Shown in pieces: positions 2,207 to 10,262 of a stretch of DNA of 10,715 nucleotides; the stretch's first letter is position 1; every line of letters begins with the position of its first letter. Below the pieces are notes generated by a model. It was not told the DNA's origin and made no database searches. It saw only the letters and a program-made list of their open reading frames with translations. Location of the stretch: NCBI GenBank assembly GCA_003242115.1, contig QBMP01000121.1, positions 1,190 through 11,904 on the forward strand. Direction: 5' to 3'. Source of the stretch: Phormidesmis priestleyi. GTDB taxonomy: Bacteria > Cyanobacteriota > Cyanobacteriia > Phormidesmidales > Phormidesmidaceae. The position numbers and the translations under genes were made by a program.

Positions 2207-3595
2207 CTACATGTACTCGAATGTCTGCTTCAGAATAGATTCGTTAGCTTCTGTAATAGAGCGTGTCTCGTTTTCTATCATCGAGATAAGTCCTTGACTA
2301 ATTCCGGTTAAAGTTGCCAGTTTCCGCTGGCTCCATCCCCTGGAAATCCGCTGCGACTTTACGTCAGATCCAGTTAAGGTAGGGACTGCTAGATCCAAAG
2401 CAACCTCATCTGACGCTTCCGTAGCCGACTCCAAGTGATCTATATTCCAGCTCTCAGGCGGCATTATCTCAAGCTGGGCATCTAGCAACTGGTCAAAAAA
2501 GCCGCGCGGGCGACGGACGTTTTCGCGGCCAAAGCCAGGAGGTTGAATATCATTTGGATAGGACTCAGCATCAAACTGTATTCGCCACCCACGATCATGC
2601 AAAGCTAACAAATCTTCATCCCAAGTATTAGTCAGCTTTTTTCTGAGCTGATTATCTTGCTTGGCCGTGCGAACCTTGTCTGGCCCATAGGCCACTTCCA
2701 TCAATACCCGCACCGGAATAGTGTAGAGGCGATTAAGCTGAAACTTAAAAAGCAGCCATACCATCAACCTCGCTGCACCCGCTCTATGCTGCCAAAGGCT
2801 CATAACGTTCTCTAAAAGAGACTTAGACAATACGCCTTTGCTAGAAGGAGAATTCTGTTCATGGGCGTCATCTTCGTTTAGAAAATACTTTGCCCACAGG
2901 CCAGCTTTCACCACAAAAGACATCCCCGATAGCTGTTTCTCACCAAATATATTTTGCTGGTAGTGATAGCGGGTTCCCAACAAATGCCATAAGCGACCTT
3001 CCTCAACCGTGAAACCTTTACTCTTTCCTTGACGAGGCCAAGAAATAAACGTTGTGATCTTGCAAGGTTGCTTAACAATCTCTTCTATCAGCTCTAGTTT
3101 CTCTTGTCTATTTTTATCAGTCCGCCGCTGCAACCCTAAATAGGACTCAAGCTGTCTGTCATCAATGACTAACTCTTGCTCCCACGGTTTCTCCATCTGA
3201 GAGGCATAGGCTGCAAAGATCAAATGCATGCAAGCCGCTCGCATATCAAACGTATCGATAACAGCCAAAGCCGCCGCGCCCGCTAATGTCGATGGATGCT
3301 CATCTTCAGTATCACCTGCGACCCAGAAGCAAATAGCGCCTTTTCCATCGTTGACATCACGGCTGTAGATTAGCTTCCCATCAGGATCAGTTGTCCAAGG
3401 CAAGTGTTGACTTTGAGTCAGAATGTTACTTGCTTCCCAAATAGGCAAGGAAGAAGTCACCCTCGTTAAGGTGCTTTTCTCAAATAAGCCTGGGCTGGTT
3501 TTGGGGCGATCGCCTGCTACCGACTTCAAATAAGCCTTATTTTCTTGTGCATTGGGTGGTTTATTGGCACTAGATTTATTAGATTTAAAGGCCAT
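2207..3595 (-). CDS. Putative plasmid replication initiator or copy-control protein with C-terminal XRE HTH
   Basis: A 462-aa protein starting at ATG 3593-3595, with AGGA four bases upstream and a perfect TATAAT at 3652-3647. The N-terminal 60 residues are polar and probably disordered. Residues about 100-200 are helical and include a Lys/Glu-rich piece (RTDKNRQEKLELIEEIVKQP). A middle block at about 260-350 looks like a winged-helix fold (LMVWLLFKFQLNRLYTIPVR, then a basic helix and GWRIQFD). Residues about 407-462 are a classic XRE/Cro helix-turn-helix, with SQRKLATLTGISQGLISMIE as the two core helices. An HTH at the C-terminus of a large protein is unusual for a simple repressor. Position supports a replication role: the gene diverges from a primase-polymerase gene across an iteron-like array. 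The HTH is clear; the initiator role is inferred from context, and a stand-alone regulator remains possible. Confidence 0.6.
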   Translation of the reverse strand: MAFKSNKSSANKPPNAQENKAYLKSVAGDRPKTSPGLFEKSTLTRVTSSLPIWEASNILTQSQHLPWTTDPDGKLIYSRDVNDGKGAICFWVAGDTEDEHPSTLAGAAALAVIDTFDMRAACMHLIFAAYASQMEKPWEQELVIDDRQLESYLGLQRRTDKNRQEKLELIEEIVKQPCKITTFISWPRQGKSKGFTVEEGRLWHLLGTRYHYQQNIFGEKQLSGMSFVVKAGLWAKYFLNEDDAHEQNSPSSKGVLSKSLLENVMSLWQHRAGAARLMVWLLFKFQLNRLYTIPVRVLMEVAYGPDKVRTAKQDNQLRKKLTNTWDEDLLALHDRGWRIQFDAESYPNDIQPPGFGRENVRRPRGFFDQLLDAQLEIMPPESWNIDHLESATEASDEVALDLAVPTLTGSDVKSQRISRGWSQRKLATLTGISQGLISMIENETRSITEANESILKQTFEYM

Positions 3596-3646
3596 CAGTC
3601 CTAATACCCGTTTAGTTCCGACACCAAAGACAAAGTTTTGACTGAG

Positions 3647-3652
3647 ATTATA
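3647..3652 (-). promoter_or_regulatory. -10 element upstream of the 462-aa XRE protein gene
   Basis: A perfect TATAAT is read on the minus strand, giving a leader of about 45 nt before the ATG at 3595. No good -35 hexamer lies 16-18 bp upstream, so the promoter may depend on an activator. A TGATTACA box (3708-3715) lies about 55 bp upstream of it and could be an operator. Confidence 0.5.
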
Positions 3653-3845
3653 GCGCTATTTGCTCCAGAAGCAGAAAATACATCTTAAACCGCACAGATA
3701 TTCGTGTTGATTACATAACAGAACTGTCAAATGTATCTAAAAGCAGGCACTAATAAAGTGTAGCCAGTAATAAGGATACGCTATCAGTAGAGTTACTTTG
3801 TGTTAACAGTCGCTCCAAGTGCGCTAGCTGTAGTGGAGACATCTA

Positions 3846-3880
3846 CCAATCTTGCACCGAGTGATTACAAGAAACTCTAG
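3846..3880 (+). repeat. 35-bp direct repeat, copy 1
   Basis: It begins CCAATCTTGCACCGAG and contains a complete left half-site (TGATTACA) followed by AGAAACTCTAG. Copy 2 at 3982-4016 is identical except for one base (G at 3854, A at 3990). The 136-bp offset and near identity point to a recent local duplication or strong selection on this larger unit. Confidence 0.8.
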
Positions 3881-4163
3881 AACCTAGCCTTGATTACACA
3901 TTTTTCTAGAACCTGACCCCGTACTGATTACAGAACAAGCCGCTGAAAGCCCTGATTACACAGTAATCCTAGAGCCTCTACCCAATCTTACACCGAGTGA
4001 TTACAAGAAACTCTAGTATTCCAACCCAATTTTTCTAGAGCCTCGGCCCTATTTTTTCTAGAACCTCGGCCCAAGTAAATTACGTCTCATACGCCAAATC
4101 AGTCTGTTCGCTGGCATCGTGCGATTAAAAGATCGCAAAACGATTACAGAACGGAGTAGAACA
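3862..4163 (+). repeat. Composite iteron array TGATTACA-N7-CTAGARCC
   Basis: Left half-sites TGATTACA occur at 3862, 3891, 3925, 3953 and 3998, plus CGATTACA at 4141. Right half-sites CTAGAACC or CTAGAGCC occur at 3877, 3906, 3969, 4035 and 4058, with degenerate forms at 4013 (CTAG only) and 4156 (GTAGAACA). The start-to-start distance from left to right half is 15 bp at 3862, 3891, 3998 and 4141, and 16 bp at 3953. The last three right halves (4013, 4035, 4058) are 22-23 bp apart, about two helical turns, and two of them continue into CTCGGCCC. All these copies point the same way. An extra direct TGATTACA (3708) and an inverted one (4185-4192) flank the array. Confidence 0.75.
3982..4016 (+). 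repeat. 35-bp direct repeat, copy 2
   Basis: This matches 3846-3880 at 34 of 35 positions. It then diverges: after CTAG copy 1 continues AACC, whereas copy 2 continues TATTCC, so its right half-site is broken. Confidence 0.8.
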
Positions 4164-4184
4164 TGTATCCTATTTTGTTCTCTT

Positions 4185-4192
4185 TGTAATCA
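4185..4192 (-). promoter_or_regulatory. Inverted TGATTACA half-site upstream of the primase gene
   Basis: TGTAATCA here is the reverse complement of the iteron left half; the extended match GTGATTACAA-GA resembles the 3861 and 3997 copies. It lies 10 bp upstream of a TATAAG -10-like hexamer (4203-4208), where a bound initiator could repress transcription. Inverted iteron halves serving as autoregulatory operators are known from several iteron plasmids; here the role is inferred. Confidence 0.4.
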
Positions 4193-4202
4193 CCCGCTTT
4201 GC

Positions 4203-4208
4203 TATAAG
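4203..4208 (+). promoter_or_regulatory. -10-like hexamer for the primase-polymerase gene
   Basis: TATAAG with no good -35 at standard spacing; TTGTTC at 4175-4180 is 22 bp away. If it is used, transcription would begin near 4215, which leaves no room for a ribosome site before the TTG at 4218 and favours the GTG at 4269. Confidence 0.3.
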
Positions 4209-4217
4209 TATTAAGCA

Positions 4218-6098
4218 TTGTTTACTGATTCACGAGTCCAGCCATTACAGGAACAACGTACAAAAAAAGTGATATCGGTCGAAAGTAAAACGTTTAAATA
4301 CGTCCAGGAAAAAAGCGAGGATTTTCTTGCTCTATTTCCGCATCGCTACGACTTTATCTACGCCCCTCACCCCAATCCTAAAGAAAAGCCGGACTGGCGA
4401 TCTGAAAACCGCTACCCGCTATCAGATCGTCAGTTGCTGGCAGGCGAATATCTCTACGGCGTTCGCTTTGAACAAGAAACCCAGTACGTTCTACTCGATA
4501 TAGATCGTACAAGCCCGTATCATCCACAAAACGCACCGTTAGTGCTGAACCGTCTGTACGAGGCATTAGAACCGCTCGGCATCACTGACCACATCACCTG
4601 CACCTCCAGTGACAGCCAAGGACTCCATATTTATTTCCCCATCACAAAAGCGTTCAATTCCTGGAAGCTTTCTAAAGCCATTTCTATCGCCTTGGGAAAC
4701 GCAGGCTTTAAGCTAAAACTGGGTCAGCTAGAGCTGTTTCCAAATCCCAAAGCCTACAGCACAGACGAAACGCCTAGCCTTTTCAACGCTCATCGAATCC
4801 CGCTACAGATGGGCTCTTATATCTTAGATGATGACTTACAGCCGATTAACAGCTCACAAACTCACTTCGTGCGCGTGTGGAAAATGTGCCAGCAGCGCAA
4901 CAACCTCGATCAGCAGCAGCTCAAACGACTGCTGAAAAAAGCCAAGCAAATCAGCTATCAGCTATCAAACAATGCGAGCAAGTTTCTCAATGATCTCAAT
5001 ACAGAAATAGACGCAGGCTGGACGGACTATGGTCAAACCAATCGGCTGTTGGGACGCATTACGATGCGCTCGTTTATCTTCAACCACATCATCGAAGGCA
5101 CAGCACCATTAGAGGGCAAAGCACTTGTCGAAAAAATTGTCTCAGTCGCCAAGGCCCTGCCTGGATACAAAGACTGGTGCCGTCATCAGCATGAGATTGA
5201 AGAGAGAGCGACAGAGTGGGCTAGATGTATCGAGAATAGTCACTATTTTGCCTATGGGACAGCGAAAGGTAAGTACAGAGAGCTAACCGGCACCAATCAA
5301 GTAGACAATGAGCTGGACTACAATCAACAGCAGGCTCAAGAGACACAGGCAAAAATTGTCGCAGCAGTCAAAGACTTACGCTCAAAAGATGCCCTGCCAG
5401 AAGCAGCGACCTCGCGATTTAAGGCACTGCTTAAGTACCACATTGGCGGCGCTTCGCTATATCGCTACCGCGAGCTGTGGCACCCGATTGAGCTAGAAAG
5501 CAATCGCGAGGAATCCGGACTTCAAATGACGGCCTTTGAGGACGCCCGCACTGAGGGTGCAAACGGCCTCAAAAATCCTACAAGCTTATTACCCCCAACT
5601 GATGGTAATTTACCGACTGACAAGGGGTTGGGCGATTCTGACAATGCGATTGACCGCCCAGAGGGTAATAATTCTCCAGATCCTGTCCAAGCGGTAAGAG
5701 ATCGCATTAAAAAGCAGCTAGCTGACCAGCAGCAGGCGCGATCGCTGGCGCAAAAGACCCCGATTGCCTTGCCCGATGAAGCCGCGAATCTGATTCACAG
5801 ACGTGCTTTGCAGCGAATGCGAGATTTTTTGCTCTCTGGCGAACCGATATTGCTGATTGAGGTGGGGCAGTGGCTAGCAAAGCAGCCGCAAAGGGTGCGA
5901 GATGAGCTTATATTTCAAGAAGATGAACGGCAGCAAGCATTGCTCTATGACTTGGCTGCGATCTCAGAATGTTTAGTCGCGTTGAATTGCTCTCCTTGGG
6001 AAGTTAGGTTTCAGTTAGAGGAGCGCTATGGAAAATCATTGATTTTAGAGCTAACGATTGAGGAACGACGCGCATGGGTGGGAACTCTCACTCAGTAG
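4218..6098 (+). CDS. Archaeo-eukaryotic-type primase-polymerase, putative plasmid replicase
   Basis: 626 aa from a TTG at 4218, the first start after the in-frame TAA at 4212. GTG 4269, with AGGA at 4249-4252 but a long 16-nt spacer, is an alternative that removes 17 residues. The AEP catalytic series is visible: DID at 94-96 (metal-binding DxD), GLHIYF with H137, LELFP with E172, and HRIPL at 192-196, the arrangement seen in TOTE-type and plasmid primase-polymerases. Residues about 265-345 resemble PriCT regions (GQTNRLLGRI, then LPGYKDWCRHQHEIEERATE). An HTH-like piece ending in SLYRYRELWHP (413-423) precedes a Pro/Asn/Gly-rich linker (430-490) and a helical C-terminus. No Walker A motif is present, so a helicase must come from elsewhere. 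It should synthesise primers or DNA at the adjacent iteron region. The AEP call is good; the replicase role comes from context. Confidence 0.75.
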   Translation: MFTDSRVQPLQEQRTKKVISVESKTFKYVQEKSEDFLALFPHRYDFIYAPHPNPKEKPDWRSENRYPLSDRQLLAGEYLYGVRFEQETQYVLLDIDRTSPYHPQNAPLVLNRLYEALEPLGITDHITCTSSDSQGLHIYFPITKAFNSWKLSKAISIALGNAGFKLKLGQLELFPNPKAYSTDETPSLFNAHRIPLQMGSYILDDDLQPINSSQTHFVRVWKMCQQRNNLDQQQLKRLLKKAKQISYQLSNNASKFLNDLNTEIDAGWTDYGQTNRLLGRITMRSFIFNHIIEGTAPLEGKALVEKIVSVAKALPGYKDWCRHQHEIEERATEWARCIENSHYFAYGTAKGKYRELTGTNQVDNELDYNQQQAQETQAKIVAAVKDLRSKDALPEAATSRFKALLKYHIGGASLYRYRELWHPIELESNREESGLQMTAFEDARTEGANGLKNPTSLLPPTDGNLPTDKGLGDSDNAIDRPEGNNSPDPVQAVRDRIKKQLADQQQARSLAQKTPIALPDEAANLIHRRALQRMRDFLLSGEPILLIEVGQWLAKQPQRVRDELIFQEDERQQALLYDLAAISECLVALNCSPWEVRFQLEERYGKSLILELTIEERRAWVGTLTQ

Positions 6099-6111: not shown

Positions 6112-6954
6112 TCAAAGAAGAGGCGTTAGCAGATGTCTACGGTAGTTGAGGTAAGCGATATCATTGAGTGTCTTTTTGCCGTCTCTGACAAAGGCATACT
6201 CCTCTGCTAGAGCCAGCTCATCGAGAATGCTCTAGCAGAGGAGTAGTCACCTGCACGCCGAAAAGCTCAGCCGTACCGACCACTCGTTCGTAGGCGCTAG
6301 GTGTTCTGCCTAAATGCCATAGAATGTCTGCCCCCGCTACAAACTCAAACCGCCGCTGATTAAAGCTGTAGGCGTTCACAAAATGAGCGTGATAGTGATC
6401 TTCAGGCTTACCGCAAAAGCAGTCGAAACTAAACCAAGCCCTTTTGACCTCAGATGAGTATCGTTTTCTCGATGACTTTTCGAGGATACGAAAGTCATTG
6501 ACGTTAGAGATGACGACAACACAGCGAGTACCATCGTCATCAATATACTCACCAGCGATCGCCGAACGAATACTGGAAACAGCATAGTAGGGCGATTGAG
6601 CGCCTTGAACAAGCGCTTGATCTCGCGTTCGACCTGTGGTTGTTTGGGCAGATAAGTTTTGACCTTGCACCCATTCAGATCAGGCTTGAGTAGGTCAATA
6701 TAGAACCGCTCTTGCTCGTTTAGCTGGTGAGCTGAAAACGCCTGCCAATAGATCTGATGCTTGAGCTTACGATTTGTGCGAATAAGCTGCGGGTACCGAT
6801 GATGACCTTTGCCCAACCATCGGCTTTGCAAGTCAACGGCTTGTCCGACATACCAGACGCAGTGATGATCATCAGCAATCACGTATATGCCGGAACAAGC
6901 GGGAAGAAGCTGGCGATCGCCAAAAGCCACAGACGGCCACTGCTGCCATTCCAT
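6112..6954 (-). pseudogene. GIY-YIG nuclease-domain gene broken by two frame changes
   Basis: ATG 6952-6954 opens a frame holding a complete GIY-YIG domain: GIY at 22-24, YVG at 36-38, Arg45 in DLQSRW, and the catalytic Glu region NEQERFYIDLLKPDLN at 79-94. Around 6577-6580, after FKALNR, this frame loses sense and the -1 frame continues naturally as PYYAVSSIRSAIAGEYIDDDG through a Cys-, His- and Phe-rich domain to TPLLE near 6230. The first frame then resumes as ILDELALAEEYAFV and ends RHLLTPLL at a TGA (6112-6114). The total span of 843 bp is a whole number of codons, so the two shifts cancel. The first fits loss of one C from a C run; I see no slippery heptamer. If unshifted it would encode about 280 aa. 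The stop lies 13 bp from the converging primase gene. Either a recent pseudogene or assembly errors explain it. Confidence 0.65.
6197..6245. repeat. Perfect 17-bp inverted repeat, 15-bp loop
   Basis: TACTCCTCTGCTAGAGC at 6197-6213 is exactly complementary to 6229-6245. Neither arm is followed by a T-tract, so it does not look like a standard intrinsic terminator. On the minus strand the arms encode TPLLE and ALAEEY of the broken GIY-YIG protein, and the second frame change falls at the loop edge. Confidence 0.85.
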
Positions 6955-7303: not shown

Positions 7304-8392
7304 TTACTCACGTTCACAACGGTCACTTGCTGACAAGTCCAGCGCTAGCTGCTGAAAGGACTGAGGATGAGCCAAGTTTGAGATTGTAATGCCTAGCAGC
7401 CTGACTGATCGATTGAGATCTAGATGTGCGGACAGTAAATCACGAGATAGCTGCAAGATCTCCGCTGGCTCTCGGATCAAACTGTCTCGCGTGCGACTGC
7501 GCGTAATCGTCTCGTAGTTACCGTATTTTATCTTCAGCGTCAGAGTGTAGCCGTAGCGTTTGTTCTCAGTTAGCCGTTGATGCACCTCTTGGGCAATCTT
7601 CACTAGCGCCGCCGCCATCTCATCAGGCTCTCGCAAATCTTCTGAAAAGCTGCGCTCCGCGCCAATTGACTTACGAAGCCGATGGGGATTGACCGGGCGG
7701 TTATCCTCAGCTCTGACGACCCAGTAGTAATAGTCTCCTGCTTTGCCAAACGTCGCTATCAGCCGCGCCCTGTCCCACTGCTTCAGGTCTGCGCCATTTT
7801 CGATACCTTGCGCCTTCATCTTTGCCGCTGTCGCGGGGCCAACGCCGTGAAACGCGGCGATCGGCAGCTGCTCTAAGAATGCTTCTGCCTGCGCTGGCGC
7901 TATCAAGGAAAGCCCGTCTGGCTTCTCTAGATCGGACGCAATTTTGGCCAGAAACTTATTGATAGAGACGCCCGCAGAGGCCGTCAGGTGCAAATTTGCT
8001 TGGATGCGGTGTTTGATTTGCTGTGCGATCGCCATCGCTGACCCGATGCCTAGCTTATCGACCGTCACATCTAGATAAGCCTCATCGAGAGAGAGCGGCT
8101 CCACTAGGTCTGTGTAGTCAAAAAATATCTTTCTAATCTCAGCCGACGCTGCTTTATAGGCATCAAAGCGAGGCGGCACGAACACGAGCTGCGGGCAGCG
8201 CATCAGGGCGCTGCGAGAGGGCATAGCCGAATGAATGCCAAATTGTCTGGCCTCGTAGCTAGCGGTCATCACCACTCCGCGCTGCTCGGGAGGCCCGCCT
8301 ACGGCCACCGGCTGACCGCGCAGCGATGGATCGTCTCTTTGCTCCACCGATGCATAAAAGGCATCCATGTCTACATGGATAATCTTTCTCAT
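7304..8392 (-). CDS. dinB: DNA polymerase IV (Y-family translesion polymerase)
   Basis: 362 aa, the normal length for this family, which copies past damaged template bases. The open frame extends upstream to a GTG at 8476, but the family start MRKIIHVDMDAFYASVE and a purine-rich AAAGAGAG just before it fix the ATG at 8390-8392. Catalytic metal ligands are visible as D8 in HVDMD and D103/E104 in SLDEAYLD; Tyr13 takes the steric-gate place that excludes ribonucleotides. YEARQFGI (46-53) is the usual fingers motif, and GVSINKFLAKIASD, the palm helix, is followed by the helix-hairpin-helix region (LPIAAFHGVGPATAAKM). The little-finger domain follows, and the C-terminal QLALDL matches the sliding-clamp-binding motif. 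Everything needed for activity appears present. No LexA-like box could be identified upstream. It stands between decayed fragments, consistent with accessory DNA. Confidence 0.96.
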   Translation of the reverse strand: MRKIIHVDMDAFYASVEQRDDPSLRGQPVAVGGPPEQRGVVMTASYEARQFGIHSAMPSRSALMRCPQLVFVPPRFDAYKAASAEIRKIFFDYTDLVEPLSLDEAYLDVTVDKLGIGSAMAIAQQIKHRIQANLHLTASAGVSINKFLAKIASDLEKPDGLSLIAPAQAEAFLEQLPIAAFHGVGPATAAKMKAQGIENGADLKQWDRARLIATFGKAGDYYYWVVRAEDNRPVNPHRLRKSIGAERSFSEDLREPDEMAAALVKIAQEVHQRLTENKRYGYTLTLKIKYGNYETITRSRTRDSLIREPAEILQLSRDLLSAHLDLNRSVRLLGITISNLAHPQSFQQLALDLSASDRCERE

Positions 8393-8501
8393 GCTCTCTT
8401 TAGAACGGGTCAATGGGGGCACCGAATAGACTGAAGCAAGTACGATCTCCATACCATTGTGAACGTTGAGTTGCACAGGCGAAACGTCTACCTGACCAAC
8501 A

Positions 8502-8828: not shown

Positions 8829-9440
8829 TCAGAGCAGTGCCAGCAGCGCTAGATGAACTGGGTAGAAGCCGTAAAACCAGCGAGCTTTGGGGCCACGCTG
8901 CCCCTTGAACGCAATAAACAACAGCGGCACAACGGTAGTTGGAAGCTGAAACGTTCCAGCATACCCTGCCCAAATCAGATGAAACCCAACCCAGACCAAC
9001 CACCATATGAGATGAGGGCGAAAATAGCGGATCAGCAGTATCAGAATGATACCGTAGCTACCGTAGCTGATGTTCAACGCTTCAGTGATGAGCGCTGCTG
9101 ATATCCACACTGGCAGCATCAACGCTGGGCGCTGCCGCGCCACTCTCAAACACACCAACCCTAAGAGCAACTGAAACAGAATATTCAGCTGCTGCGTGCC
9201 AAATGTGATCTGATAGATCGGCTGAGAGATCAGTCCTAGCAGCCCTAGCCGTAGTCCGTAGCGCCAGATATCTTTGGTGTGCGCTTCCCCCTGTATTAGC
9301 AGCCATATAAATAGTGGAAAGCTGACGCGCCCAATCACCCGCAGCCAATCAAGGTCGGGGTAGAACAGCACGCCGATATGATCCACCACCATAGTGAGCG
9401 CTGCAATAAGCTTGAAGTGATAGCTGGTGAGTCCAGTCAT
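8829..9440 (-). CDS. TraX family membrane protein
   Basis: An integral membrane protein of the TraX family, named after the F-plasmid protein that N-acetylates pilin; cyanobacterial members are usually uncharacterised. The family opening is clear: FKLIAALTMVVDHIG with Asp20 and His21 in the first helix, then RVIGRVSFPLFIWLLIQGEAHT and RYGLRLGLLGLISQPIY. I see about eight hydrophobic segments across 203 aa (near residues 10-26, 33-50, 60-76, 84-100, 106-122, 127-140, 143-161 and 167-178). The frame extends upstream to an ATG at 9503, but that start would sit 3 bp from the divergent gene's ATG and add a tail absent from typical members, so the Met at 9438-9440 is preferred. Family membership is confident; an acetyltransferase role and substrate are unproven, and no pilus genes are seen nearby. 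Confidence 0.9.
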   Translation of the reverse strand: MTGLTSYHFKLIAALTMVVDHIGVLFYPDLDWLRVIGRVSFPLFIWLLIQGEAHTKDIWRYGLRLGLLGLISQPIYQITFGTQQLNILFQLLLGLVCLRVARQRPALMLPVWISAALITEALNISYGSYGIILILLIRYFRPHLIWWLVWVGFHLIWAGYAGTFQLPTTVVPLLFIAFKGQRGPKARWFYGFYPVHLALLALL

Positions 9441-9494
9441 AGCGCAGGGTAGCATTGATAAAAATAGATACTGTTGTTTGATAGCTAGGCGCTC

Positions 9495-9499
9495 AGAGG
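9495..9499 (+). promoter_or_regulatory. Ribosome binding site of the EEP hydrolase gene
   Basis: AGAGG lies 7 nt before the ATG at 9507, ideal spacing. It fixes this start and makes the opposite-strand ATG at 9503 an unlikely start for the TraX gene. Confidence 0.7.
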
Positions 9500-9506
9500 C
9501 CATCTT

Positions 9507-10262
9507 ATGCTACGCATCGCCACCTGGAATGTGGAGCGTCCCAAACTGTCGGAAGCGACTCGCCGCGCCCGACTGCTCGAAGCCATGCAAACGATGCAGG
9601 CTGACATCTGGGTACTCACAGAAACCCATACCGCTCTCTCCCCTGGCTCAGGATTTACTGCGGTCACCTCTCAGGGCACAGACCGTCCCTGCGAACCCGG
9701 TGAAACCTGGGTCACTATCTGGTCTCGCTTTCCAATGCAGCCGGTTGATCACACCTCAGATTCATGCCGTGCGATCGCCGTGCGGATCACGCTACCCGGC
9801 GCTAAAGCCCTCATTGTCTATGGCACGGTGCTGCCGTGGCTGGGCAGCACCTGGCAAGGGATTCCGGCGGCGGGCGGCGCTGCCTTCTCAGCCGCACTGA
9901 CGGCGCAGCTCGCTGACTGGCGATCGCTTCAGCAGGACAATCCGGACTGTGATTTCATCCTGGCGGGTGACCTGAATCAGGATCTAAGCTCGTCTCACTA
10001 CTATGGTTCTAAAAAGAATCGGATTGCGCTCCAAAGCGCACTGCTAACAGCCAATCTTCAGTGCCTCACTGCCGCCGAGCTTGATCCGGTGCCGAAACAC
10101 GCCCCGAGCCATGCCTCCATAGACCATATCTGTATCAGCCAAGGGCTTACCCTTGTGCGCTCTACCGTGAGCTGGCCGATGTCTAACAGGCCGCAAAAAA
10201 ACCTCTCTGACCACTTTGGTGTCTTGGTTGAGTTGGGAAGCAATGCTAGTCTAGCAGTGTAA
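9507..10262 (+). CDS. Endonuclease/exonuclease/phosphatase family hydrolase
   Basis: 251 aa with the EEP fold signature of DNase I-like, metal-dependent phosphodiesterases. Motifs run in family order: ATWNVE (Asn8), LTET (Glu39 as metal ligand), GDLNQDL (Asp155 and Asn157), SIDHI (Asp206, His207) and SDHFGV (Asp235, His236 as general base). All expected catalytic residues are present and the length is normal for a single-domain member. There is no signal peptide or membrane helix, so it is probably cytosolic. Substrate cannot be told from sequence: DNA, RNA, phospholipid and inositol phosphate enzymes share this fold. It is transcribed away from traX, with about 66 bp between the preferred starts. 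Two HIP1 sites lie within it (9771 and 9920). Confidence 0.92.
   Translation: MLRIATWNVERPKLSEATRRARLLEAMQTMQADIWVLTETHTALSPGSGFTAVTSQGTDRPCEPGETWVTIWSRFPMQPVDHTSDSCRAIAVRITLPGAKALIVYGTVLPWLGSTWQGIPAAGGAAFSAALTAQLADWRSLQQDNPDCDFILAGDLNQDLSSSHYYGSKKNRIALQSALLTANLQCLTAAELDPVPKHAPSHASIDHICISQGLTLVRSTVSWPMSNRPQKNLSDHFGVLVELGSNASLAV

Follow-up and report, generated by a model that had tools for sequence, protein, structure and literature searches.

Introduction

Large plasmids are common in cyanobacteria, and information on their replication proteins is described as limited (PMC10899382). In Synechocystis, a role of CyRepA1 (Slr7037) in the replication of pSYSA has been shown, and control of this replicon is described through sense and antisense RNAs (PMC9978351). 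Screening for autonomous replication identified CyRepX1 and CyRepX2, from pSYSX (PMC10899382). The main text of PMC9978351 does not contain the terms iteron, direct repeat or HTH, nor does that of PMC10899382 contain 'iteron' or 'repeat'. The iteron plasmids F, pPS10 and R6K, which depend on Rep_3/RepE-type initiators, are generally known to carry direct repeats next to the replication gene, spaced by about two helical turns, and an inverted half-site before that gene (see PMC4980987). With regard to transcription factors, CnfR/PatB proteins are described as harbouring an N-terminal 4Fe-4S domain, a middle region and an XRE domain; CnfR activates nif genes, and its presumed binding sites are three conserved elements situated 300–600 bp ahead of the start sites of nifB (PMC8510180).

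Here, we focus on a stretch of 10,715 nucleotides (the window), located on a contig of 11.9 kb in a cyanobacterial draft genome (4.78 Mb, 439 contigs), in which a repeat array lies between the gene for a CnfR/PatB-like helix-turn-helix (HTH) protein and a replicase gene. On balance, we are inclined to read this array as a region of two-part iterons in a replication-control origin of plasmid type, with the HTH protein as candidate reader.

Genes Flanking the Array

The HTH protein gene (2207..3595, minus strand) codes for 462 residues. A C-terminal XRE HTH domain, at about residues 409–450, is detected by Pfam (HTH_3, 32.1 bits, cut-off 23), which found neither a Rep_3 or other initiator domain (E up to 1) nor the N-terminal 4Fe-4S ferredoxin domain, present in the chromosomal relative L074. 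The invariant S433-Q434 pair of the XRE recognition helix may resemble that of the 434 repressor, which reads ACAA.

On the other side, the gene at 4218..6098 (plus strand) codes for 626 residues as listed, its start codon being uncertain. The product has no family match above cut-off, and none to the CyRepA1 family NF042913. Residues D94, D96 and H137 are invariant across 102 relatives. DxD and sxH-like motifs are hallmarks of archaeo-eukaryotic primases (AEPs), and the best AEP-type match of the replicase profile is to a short LigD polymerase-domain motif (weak, E 0.77). From these features, we infer the name AEP-like primase used below. Five further relatives of this primase (27–60% identity) are present in the same genome, on contigs C436, C250, C69, C68 and C203 (L208–L212), so that this genome may hold several plasmid-type replicons.

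Further along the window, a Y-family DNA polymerase gene (7304–8476; IMS, 168 bits) is followed by a divergent pair consisting of a TraX-like gene (8829–9503, 129.5 bits) and an endonuclease/exonuclease/phosphatase-family gene (9507–10262). The frame 6376–6954, with GIY-YIG and VirB3 matches that are weak and below cut-offs, overlaps the frame 6218–6670, which has no match; the region 6218–6954 may be one gene split by a frameshift or an assembly error.

A Two-Part Repeat Array Upstream of the Replicase Gene

Exact copies of TGATTACA (half A) start on the plus strand at 3862, 3891, 3925, 3953 and 3998, with one more at 3708, and exact copies of CTAGARCC (half B) start on the same strand at 3877, 3906, 3969, 4035 and 4058. 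Composite units 1 (3862..3884; A 3862–3869, B 3877–3884) and 2 (3891..3913; A 3891–3898, B 3906–3913) have a start-to-start distance of 15 bp, and unit 3 (3953..3976; A 3953–3960, B 3969–3976) has one of 16 bp. The recurrence of the two halves at 15 bp, once 16, which an earlier note on this DNA had pointed out, is thus confirmed, as is its remark that several units keep a single half, A standing alone at 3925..3932 and B at 4035..4042 and, 23 bp further, at 4058..4065 (all plus strand). In composite unit 4 (3998..4020, plus strand), a decayed B, CTAGTATT, is found at 4013, 15 bp after the start of A; this unit overlaps the second copy of a 35-bp duplication (3846–3880 versus 3982–4016, 97% identity), which covers one unit. 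Half B extends past its first description, reading CTAGARCCTnnnCCC in four of five copies, the exception being the copy at 3877.

Outside this core, a lone A half is located at 3708..3715 (plus strand), 112 bp before the HTH start codon, and an A-like site, CGATTACA, at 4141..4148 (plus strand). An inverted A site (4185..4192, minus strand) starts 15 bp before an extended -10-like sequence, TGCTATAAG, at 4200. The gap 3596–4217 contains no DnaA box (two consensus forms, at most one mismatch), and its richest A/T 40-mer reaches 28/40, without any marked AT-rich tract.

The window was resampled 1000 times under a first-order Markov model for counts of A, B and A-B pairs. The seven A, six B and three A-B pairs observed compare with means of 0.27, 0.74 and 0.0, respectively, and none of these counts was reached in any of the 1000 resamples. 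The signal is weaker with one mismatch allowed, giving 14 A sites versus 6.8 expected (2 of 200 shuffles as high) and 27 B sites versus 16.1 expected (3 of 200). In the whole genome, TGATTACA-N4..12-CTAGARCC has three matches, all in the window array.

Spread and Geometry Among Close Relatives

A tblastn search with the HTH protein returned 43 plasmid records, and relatives of the protein were found in 190 of the 388 genomes of the class by genome search. Close relatives, sharing 59% to 100% identity over nearly the whole length, define family I, present in 27 of the 388 genomes. A local array, defined as three or more exact TGATTACA on the same strand plus CTAGA-type sites near the HTH gene, is present in 18 of the 27; it is cut by a contig end in one, and eight have none nearby. 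These 18 genomes lead us to reject the idea of a local quirk of the window. The likeness is at the motif level only, the whole-gap DNA having no similarity match among plasmids.

A blind search for TGATTACA-N5..9-CTAGARC gave matches in 52 of the 388 genomes, versus 11 for the reversed control (table counted by hand). Clustered A-B pairs, counted by eye, occur in 14 genomes, all of which carry a family-I HTH gene (Fisher p 1e-18); the clusters lie beside this gene in 13 and elsewhere in the genome in one (G099). A chance origin of the array is rejected by the pattern count in its own genome, by this clustering in the 388 genomes and by the resamples. The search of cyanobacteria for the motif beside homologous gene pairs, which the earlier note had suggested, was positive.

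With A taken as YGATTACA and B as CTAGANC, the 18 family-I arrays contain 90 pairs, with start-to-start offsets of 14 bp (10 pairs), 15 bp (50) or 16 bp (30), and none at any other value from 1 to 21; these pairs are not independent, since L038/L039 and L046/L048 are close kin. L005 is without A and adds nothing to this count, from which L004 and L006 were omitted as doubles of L050 and L062. B-to-B distances peak at 22–24 bp in the same arrays. In short, A (TGATTACA) and B (CTAGARCCnnnnCCC) lie at a fixed 14–16 bp, with B also in tandem at 22–24 bp, in the gap that separates the replicase gene from a CnfR/PatB-like HTH gene, and the bipartite unit of fixed spacing that had been noticed beside the primase-like gene holds far beyond the window. 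In the local arrays, the exact pairs listed are directed towards the replicase, whether the gene layout is co-oriented or divergent (the latter in the window and L038–L040), the replicase of G282 being beyond the contig end. Lone A sites are found on both strands (six and five in L051). Gloeocapsa pGLO7428.02 carries a variant array, with ATTACAAA and CTAGAACCCCACCCC. Very long arrays, with 22 and 25 A sites within 1.6 kb and repeated blocks, were noticed in two close relatives, L038 and L039, on contigs of 7.69 Mb and 344 kb.

The Array Follows the HTH Protein, Not the Replicase

Family I HTH genes precede three kinds of replicase, namely, the AEP-like primase, CyRepA1 (L006: 576 bits, cut-off 200) and, with a variant array, a DUF3987 protein (L005). 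A second HTH family (family II, 41–44% identity) is associated with a different two-part array, made of AGTAAACA and CCCGACC-type units, which precedes either the AEP-like primase (L064, L068, L069) or CyRepA1 (L065–L067: 365–384 bits). A two-by-two arrangement results, in which family I goes with TGATTACA/CTAGA and family II with AGTAAACA/CCCGACC, each with either replicase. Conversely, the AEP-like primase family is found behind four different arrays.

Pairs from single strains show the same. In the genome of the window, the second replicon (C436) has a primase that is 60% identical and an HTH protein that is 26% identical to those of the window, and its array halves are AAGACAA-type and CTCCGTAT-type; the C24 and C436 primases fall in one clade of three (100/100). 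Likewise, two plasmids of Leptolyngbya NIES-3755 carry related primases (sisters, 96/99) with different HTH proteins and arrays. In the primase tree behind these support values, the L069 row has one stop and the bootstrap had not settled. On quick trees of 21 loci, the array type changes three times along the HTH tree, which is the minimum for four types, and six times along the primase tree. The array letters thus track the HTH protein, whatever the replicase. We take the two-by-two arrangement, the same-strain pairs and the tree counts to mean that the HTH gene and its array travel together while the replicase is exchanged. A motif tied to the primase is rejected by the two-by-two arrangement and the change counts.

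Since the letters follow the HTH clade and not the replicase, one HTH protein probably reads both halves, A and B. Of the readers suggested in the earlier note, a two-domain initiator is the one favoured by these sequence patterns; that the letters track the HTH protein is observed, and its binding and initiator role are what we infer from it. The other suggestion, two proteins as readers, would have the HTH protein bind A and the replicase (or a host protein) bind B, as might be expected from two halves that differ in letters and each also occur alone. However, the letters of B are the same before the AEP-like primase, CyRepA1 and DUF3987 proteins and change with the HTH clade, and the fixed 14–16 bp offset fits one tethered protein. 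Moreover, repeated units also stand behind A upstream of nifB (see below). Because one array thus fronts several replicases, the variant one including the DUF3987 protein, and the AEP-like primase follows four arrays, we consider two readers improbable.

Arrays Away from the HTH Gene

Among the eight family-I genomes without a local array, six have one elsewhere, beside a CyRepA1 gene, which suggests action in trans. The CyRepA1 scores are 443 bits in G099, 432 in G227, 442 in G145 and 444 in G109; in G056, the array and CyRepA1 (420 bits) are on the same contig as the HTH gene, 17 kb off, and in G002, the array beside CyRepA1 (406 bits) is cut by the contig start. The remaining two of the 27 (G027 and G207) possess the HTH gene and CyRepA1 genes, with no array in the little upstream DNA examined. 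In G227 and G145, some units face away from the replicase.

The CyRepA1 genes with a family-I array in G227 (L253), G145 (L255) and G109 (L257) apparently occupy one conserved site, far from the HTH gene, and the other flank is a photolyase-like frame, as read from translation. The dnaA gene is present in all 13 genomes examined, over the cut-off in 12, and in two pieces in G227. A takeover of the chromosome origin of G099 by the HTH-array module is not supported: 222 kb separate the skew minimum of the contig from the array, and 16 kb separate it from dnaA.

Distant Relatives

The survey was extended to seven plasmids with HTH proteins at 24–30% identity (L130–L136) and eight fetched later (L215–L222). 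These loci keep the order HTH gene, gap, large gene, with a divergent layout in L216 and an intervening small frame in L217. The large gene belongs to the window primase family in L133, L134, L135 and L222, and is of CyRepA1 or DUF3854 type in L216, L217, L220 (annotation) and L221 (391 bits), as well as in L218 and L219, where it is cut by the locus end. In L130 and L131, the large gene has a PriCT_2 domain, and the large downstream frames of L132, L136 and L215 gave no replicase family match. L129, at 35% identity, has no replicase within the 4 kb examined and falls in the CnfR clade described below, like L070.

The repeat letters of these distant relatives differ from those of the window. 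A 22-bp repeat is frequent, this being the commonest distance of repeated 8-mers in eight of the 15 loci (L130, L132, L135, L136, L215, L219, L220 and L221); it is 21 in L131, and the remaining loci differ. By eye, an A-like site stands ahead of the first B unit in many of them. In 12 distant loci, ACA-to-CTAG offsets pile up at 9–11 bp (16 versus about 1.2 expected), which corresponds to 14–16 bp from the start of the 8-base A. An A consensus, W[TG]W-NN-ACA, was drawn from loci already seen, being weak in L130, L132, L135 and L136. When applied to eight fresh loci, it passed in five, including L215, a near copy of L130, and failed in L217, L219 and L222; with three of eight failing, it is rejected as a universal rule and describes a tendency only. 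In several arrays, among them L131, L132, L136 and L064–L068, a T run and a GATC-rich AT stretch were noticed by eye near another A site after the B units; such a stretch is a possible unwinding element.

Kinship with CnfR/PatB and the Region Upstream of nifB

The window HTH protein shares 35% to 39% identity with chromosomal ferredoxin-XRE proteins, with best matches starting at residues 13–34 and ending at 455–462, and a joint alignment reveals a conserved middle region common to it and the CnfR/PatB-like proteins. The chromosomal relatives L071–L076 have N-terminal cysteine motifs (by eye), the same middle region and an XRE domain, with 4Fe-4S families found in L074. We assign to this clade the putative name CnfR/PatB, which is backed by nifB: 21 of 25 such genomes have this gene, and in six of them (G005, G051, G073, G149, G193 and G265) it lies no more than about 21 kb from the CnfR-like gene. 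On a midpoint-rooted tree that carries a long-branch warning, the CnfR clade (100/100), which also includes L070 and L129, groups as sister to family I, and family II branches outside the two (99/95). ChlR was also considered as a relative and rejected, being a MarR protein according to a review; only CnfR/PatB fits.

Upstream of nifB, TGAGTAC occurs 52 times in 11 of 21 loci, versus 2.8 expected (at most 8 in 200 resamples), and is absent from the other 10 upstream stretches. Same-strand steps are of 71–74 bp (10 cases) and 114–116 bp (10 cases). NAATAC units follow the start of this A-type site at 8–12 bp (8 cases), 30–32 bp (11) and 53–54 bp (7), i.e., about 22 bp apart; with a loose filter, A plus such units is found at 13 sites in 7 of the 21 loci, two sites being off the step. 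These 11 loci (L229, L230, L232, L233, L235 and six more, read to at most 1.2 kb before nifB) show TGAGTAC steps of about 72 and 116 bp, with sites on both strands in most of the loci, and this layout is perhaps a mirrored pair of iteron-like arrays. Among the literature matches listed, none describes the plasmid arrays or TGAGTACA at nifB; the nif motif could have been published before, likeliest in Mol Microbiol 2016, 101:411 or in reference 35 of PMC8510180.

The nifB layout is the best outside support for the reading of A plus repeats by this protein family, and also the best for another explanation. In this alternative, the HTH protein would act like CnfR, as a transcription activator (or else a repressor) controlling the replicase gene, and the array would be only its control region. 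The origin proper would then be situated close to the replicase gene or within it; the parallel is pSYSA, for which priming of replication by an mRNA that originates upstream of the replicase has been suggested. Such an enhancer is favoured by the activity of CnfR as an activator of nif transcription (PMC8510180) and by the similar layout upstream of nifB. With regard to ancestry, we tentatively propose, as a possible scenario, that a phylum-wide class of plasmid initiators with two-part iterons, a two-part protein and exchangeable replicases gave rise to CnfR via chromosomal uptake, an iron-sulfur oxygen sensor and a nif iteron-like array, or that the path was the reverse.

Origin or Enhancer

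Detrended cumulative GC skew was computed for seven close and four distant replicons, contigs being treated as circles, and distances were taken to the array centre. The minimum lies near the array in NC_019691.1 (0.3 kb), AP017311.1 (1.1 kb), G141:C3 (1.3 kb) and G183:C12 (2.0 kb). It is not at the array in G115:C3, where the skew is weak (81 of 300 block shuffles reach it), or in G155:C2, and G162:C3, a contig with two further primase relatives, has a skew maximum 2.3 kb from the array. In the four distant plasmids, the minimum is 6–9 kb away. Fisher's method over the 11 replicons gives p 5e-4 for the minimum and 0.56 for the maximum. The origin check by skew, as proposed in the earlier note, thus finds the minimum no more than 2 kb from the array in four of seven close replicons, and not in the other three. 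This result is equally compatible with an enhancer and with an initiator.

Promoter-like sequences were searched in the last 420 bp before the replicase of 18 loci. In 9 of the 18 stretches, an extended -10-like sequence is preceded at 8–32 bp by an A site, versus 2.7 by random A placement, which makes the lone A sites resemble promoter control and speaks for the enhancer. The exact 15-bp inverted arrangement seen at 4185 is found in five loci including the window (4 of the 17 others), and in four of the five, the site precedes the replicase match by 305–400 bp. By contrast, the A-B and B-B part of the array looks like iterons, and up to 26 A-type sites per gap (L057 not being included in the scoring) together with tandem B units resemble, in our judgement, copy-number iterons more than a promoter. 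We rank an initiator-type origin first and the enhancer second, the latter being less probable.

Direct repeats are also typical of par loci. A partition (centromere) site, or another plasmid maintenance repeat without a part in replication control, would share this trait, and ParA/ParB genes are present about 3 kb from the array in AP017311.1. However, what constantly adjoins the array is the HTH gene on one side and a replicase on the other, in some cases CyRepA1, for which a part in pSYSA replication is shown (PMC9978351), and we regard this explanation as highly improbable.

According to the preferred reading, that of a two-part iteron region at a plasmid-type origin, the HTH protein would bind both A and B: the XRE domain at its C-terminus, joined via a length-variable stretch, would contact A, and its conserved middle region would contact B. 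Loaded on the array, it would start plasmid replication by recruiting whichever replicase adjoins, and the lone inverted A site before the replicase gene would serve expression control. The HTH protein might open the origin itself, or just drive replicase transcription. A portable module of this kind, made of the HTH gene and its array, would explain the coexistence of several plasmids with related primases in one cell, as the genome of the window seems to have, and would give compatible origins for vector work. In other respects, the CnfR link joins two questions, those of the CnfR target upstream of nifB and of CnfR ancestry.

Comparison with Known Systems

The window displays a trait of iteron origins, directly repeated units in register beside a replication gene, and it shares with F, pPS10 and R6K both the repeat spacing of about two helical turns and the inverted half-site before that gene. 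It differs from them in that no Rep_3 domain or DnaA box was found, in that its iteron is a composite of two halves also used apart, and in that reader and replicase are separate, exchangeable genes. As to pSYSA, CyRepA1-family replicases follow such arrays in other members of the group, whereas the window replicase is not CyRepA1. The likeness to CyRepX1/CyRepX2 of pSYSX is by description alone, as replication proteins of large cyanobacterial plasmids. CnfR/PatB is homologous to the window protein in both the middle region and the C-terminal XRE domain, and the A-plus-repeats layout in 7 of 21 nifB loci is similar to the plasmid array; unlike CnfR/PatB, however, the window protein lacks the N-terminal 4Fe-4S domain and is encoded next to a replicase of plasmid type, and its A sites read TGATTACA, in contrast to TGAGTACA at nifB.
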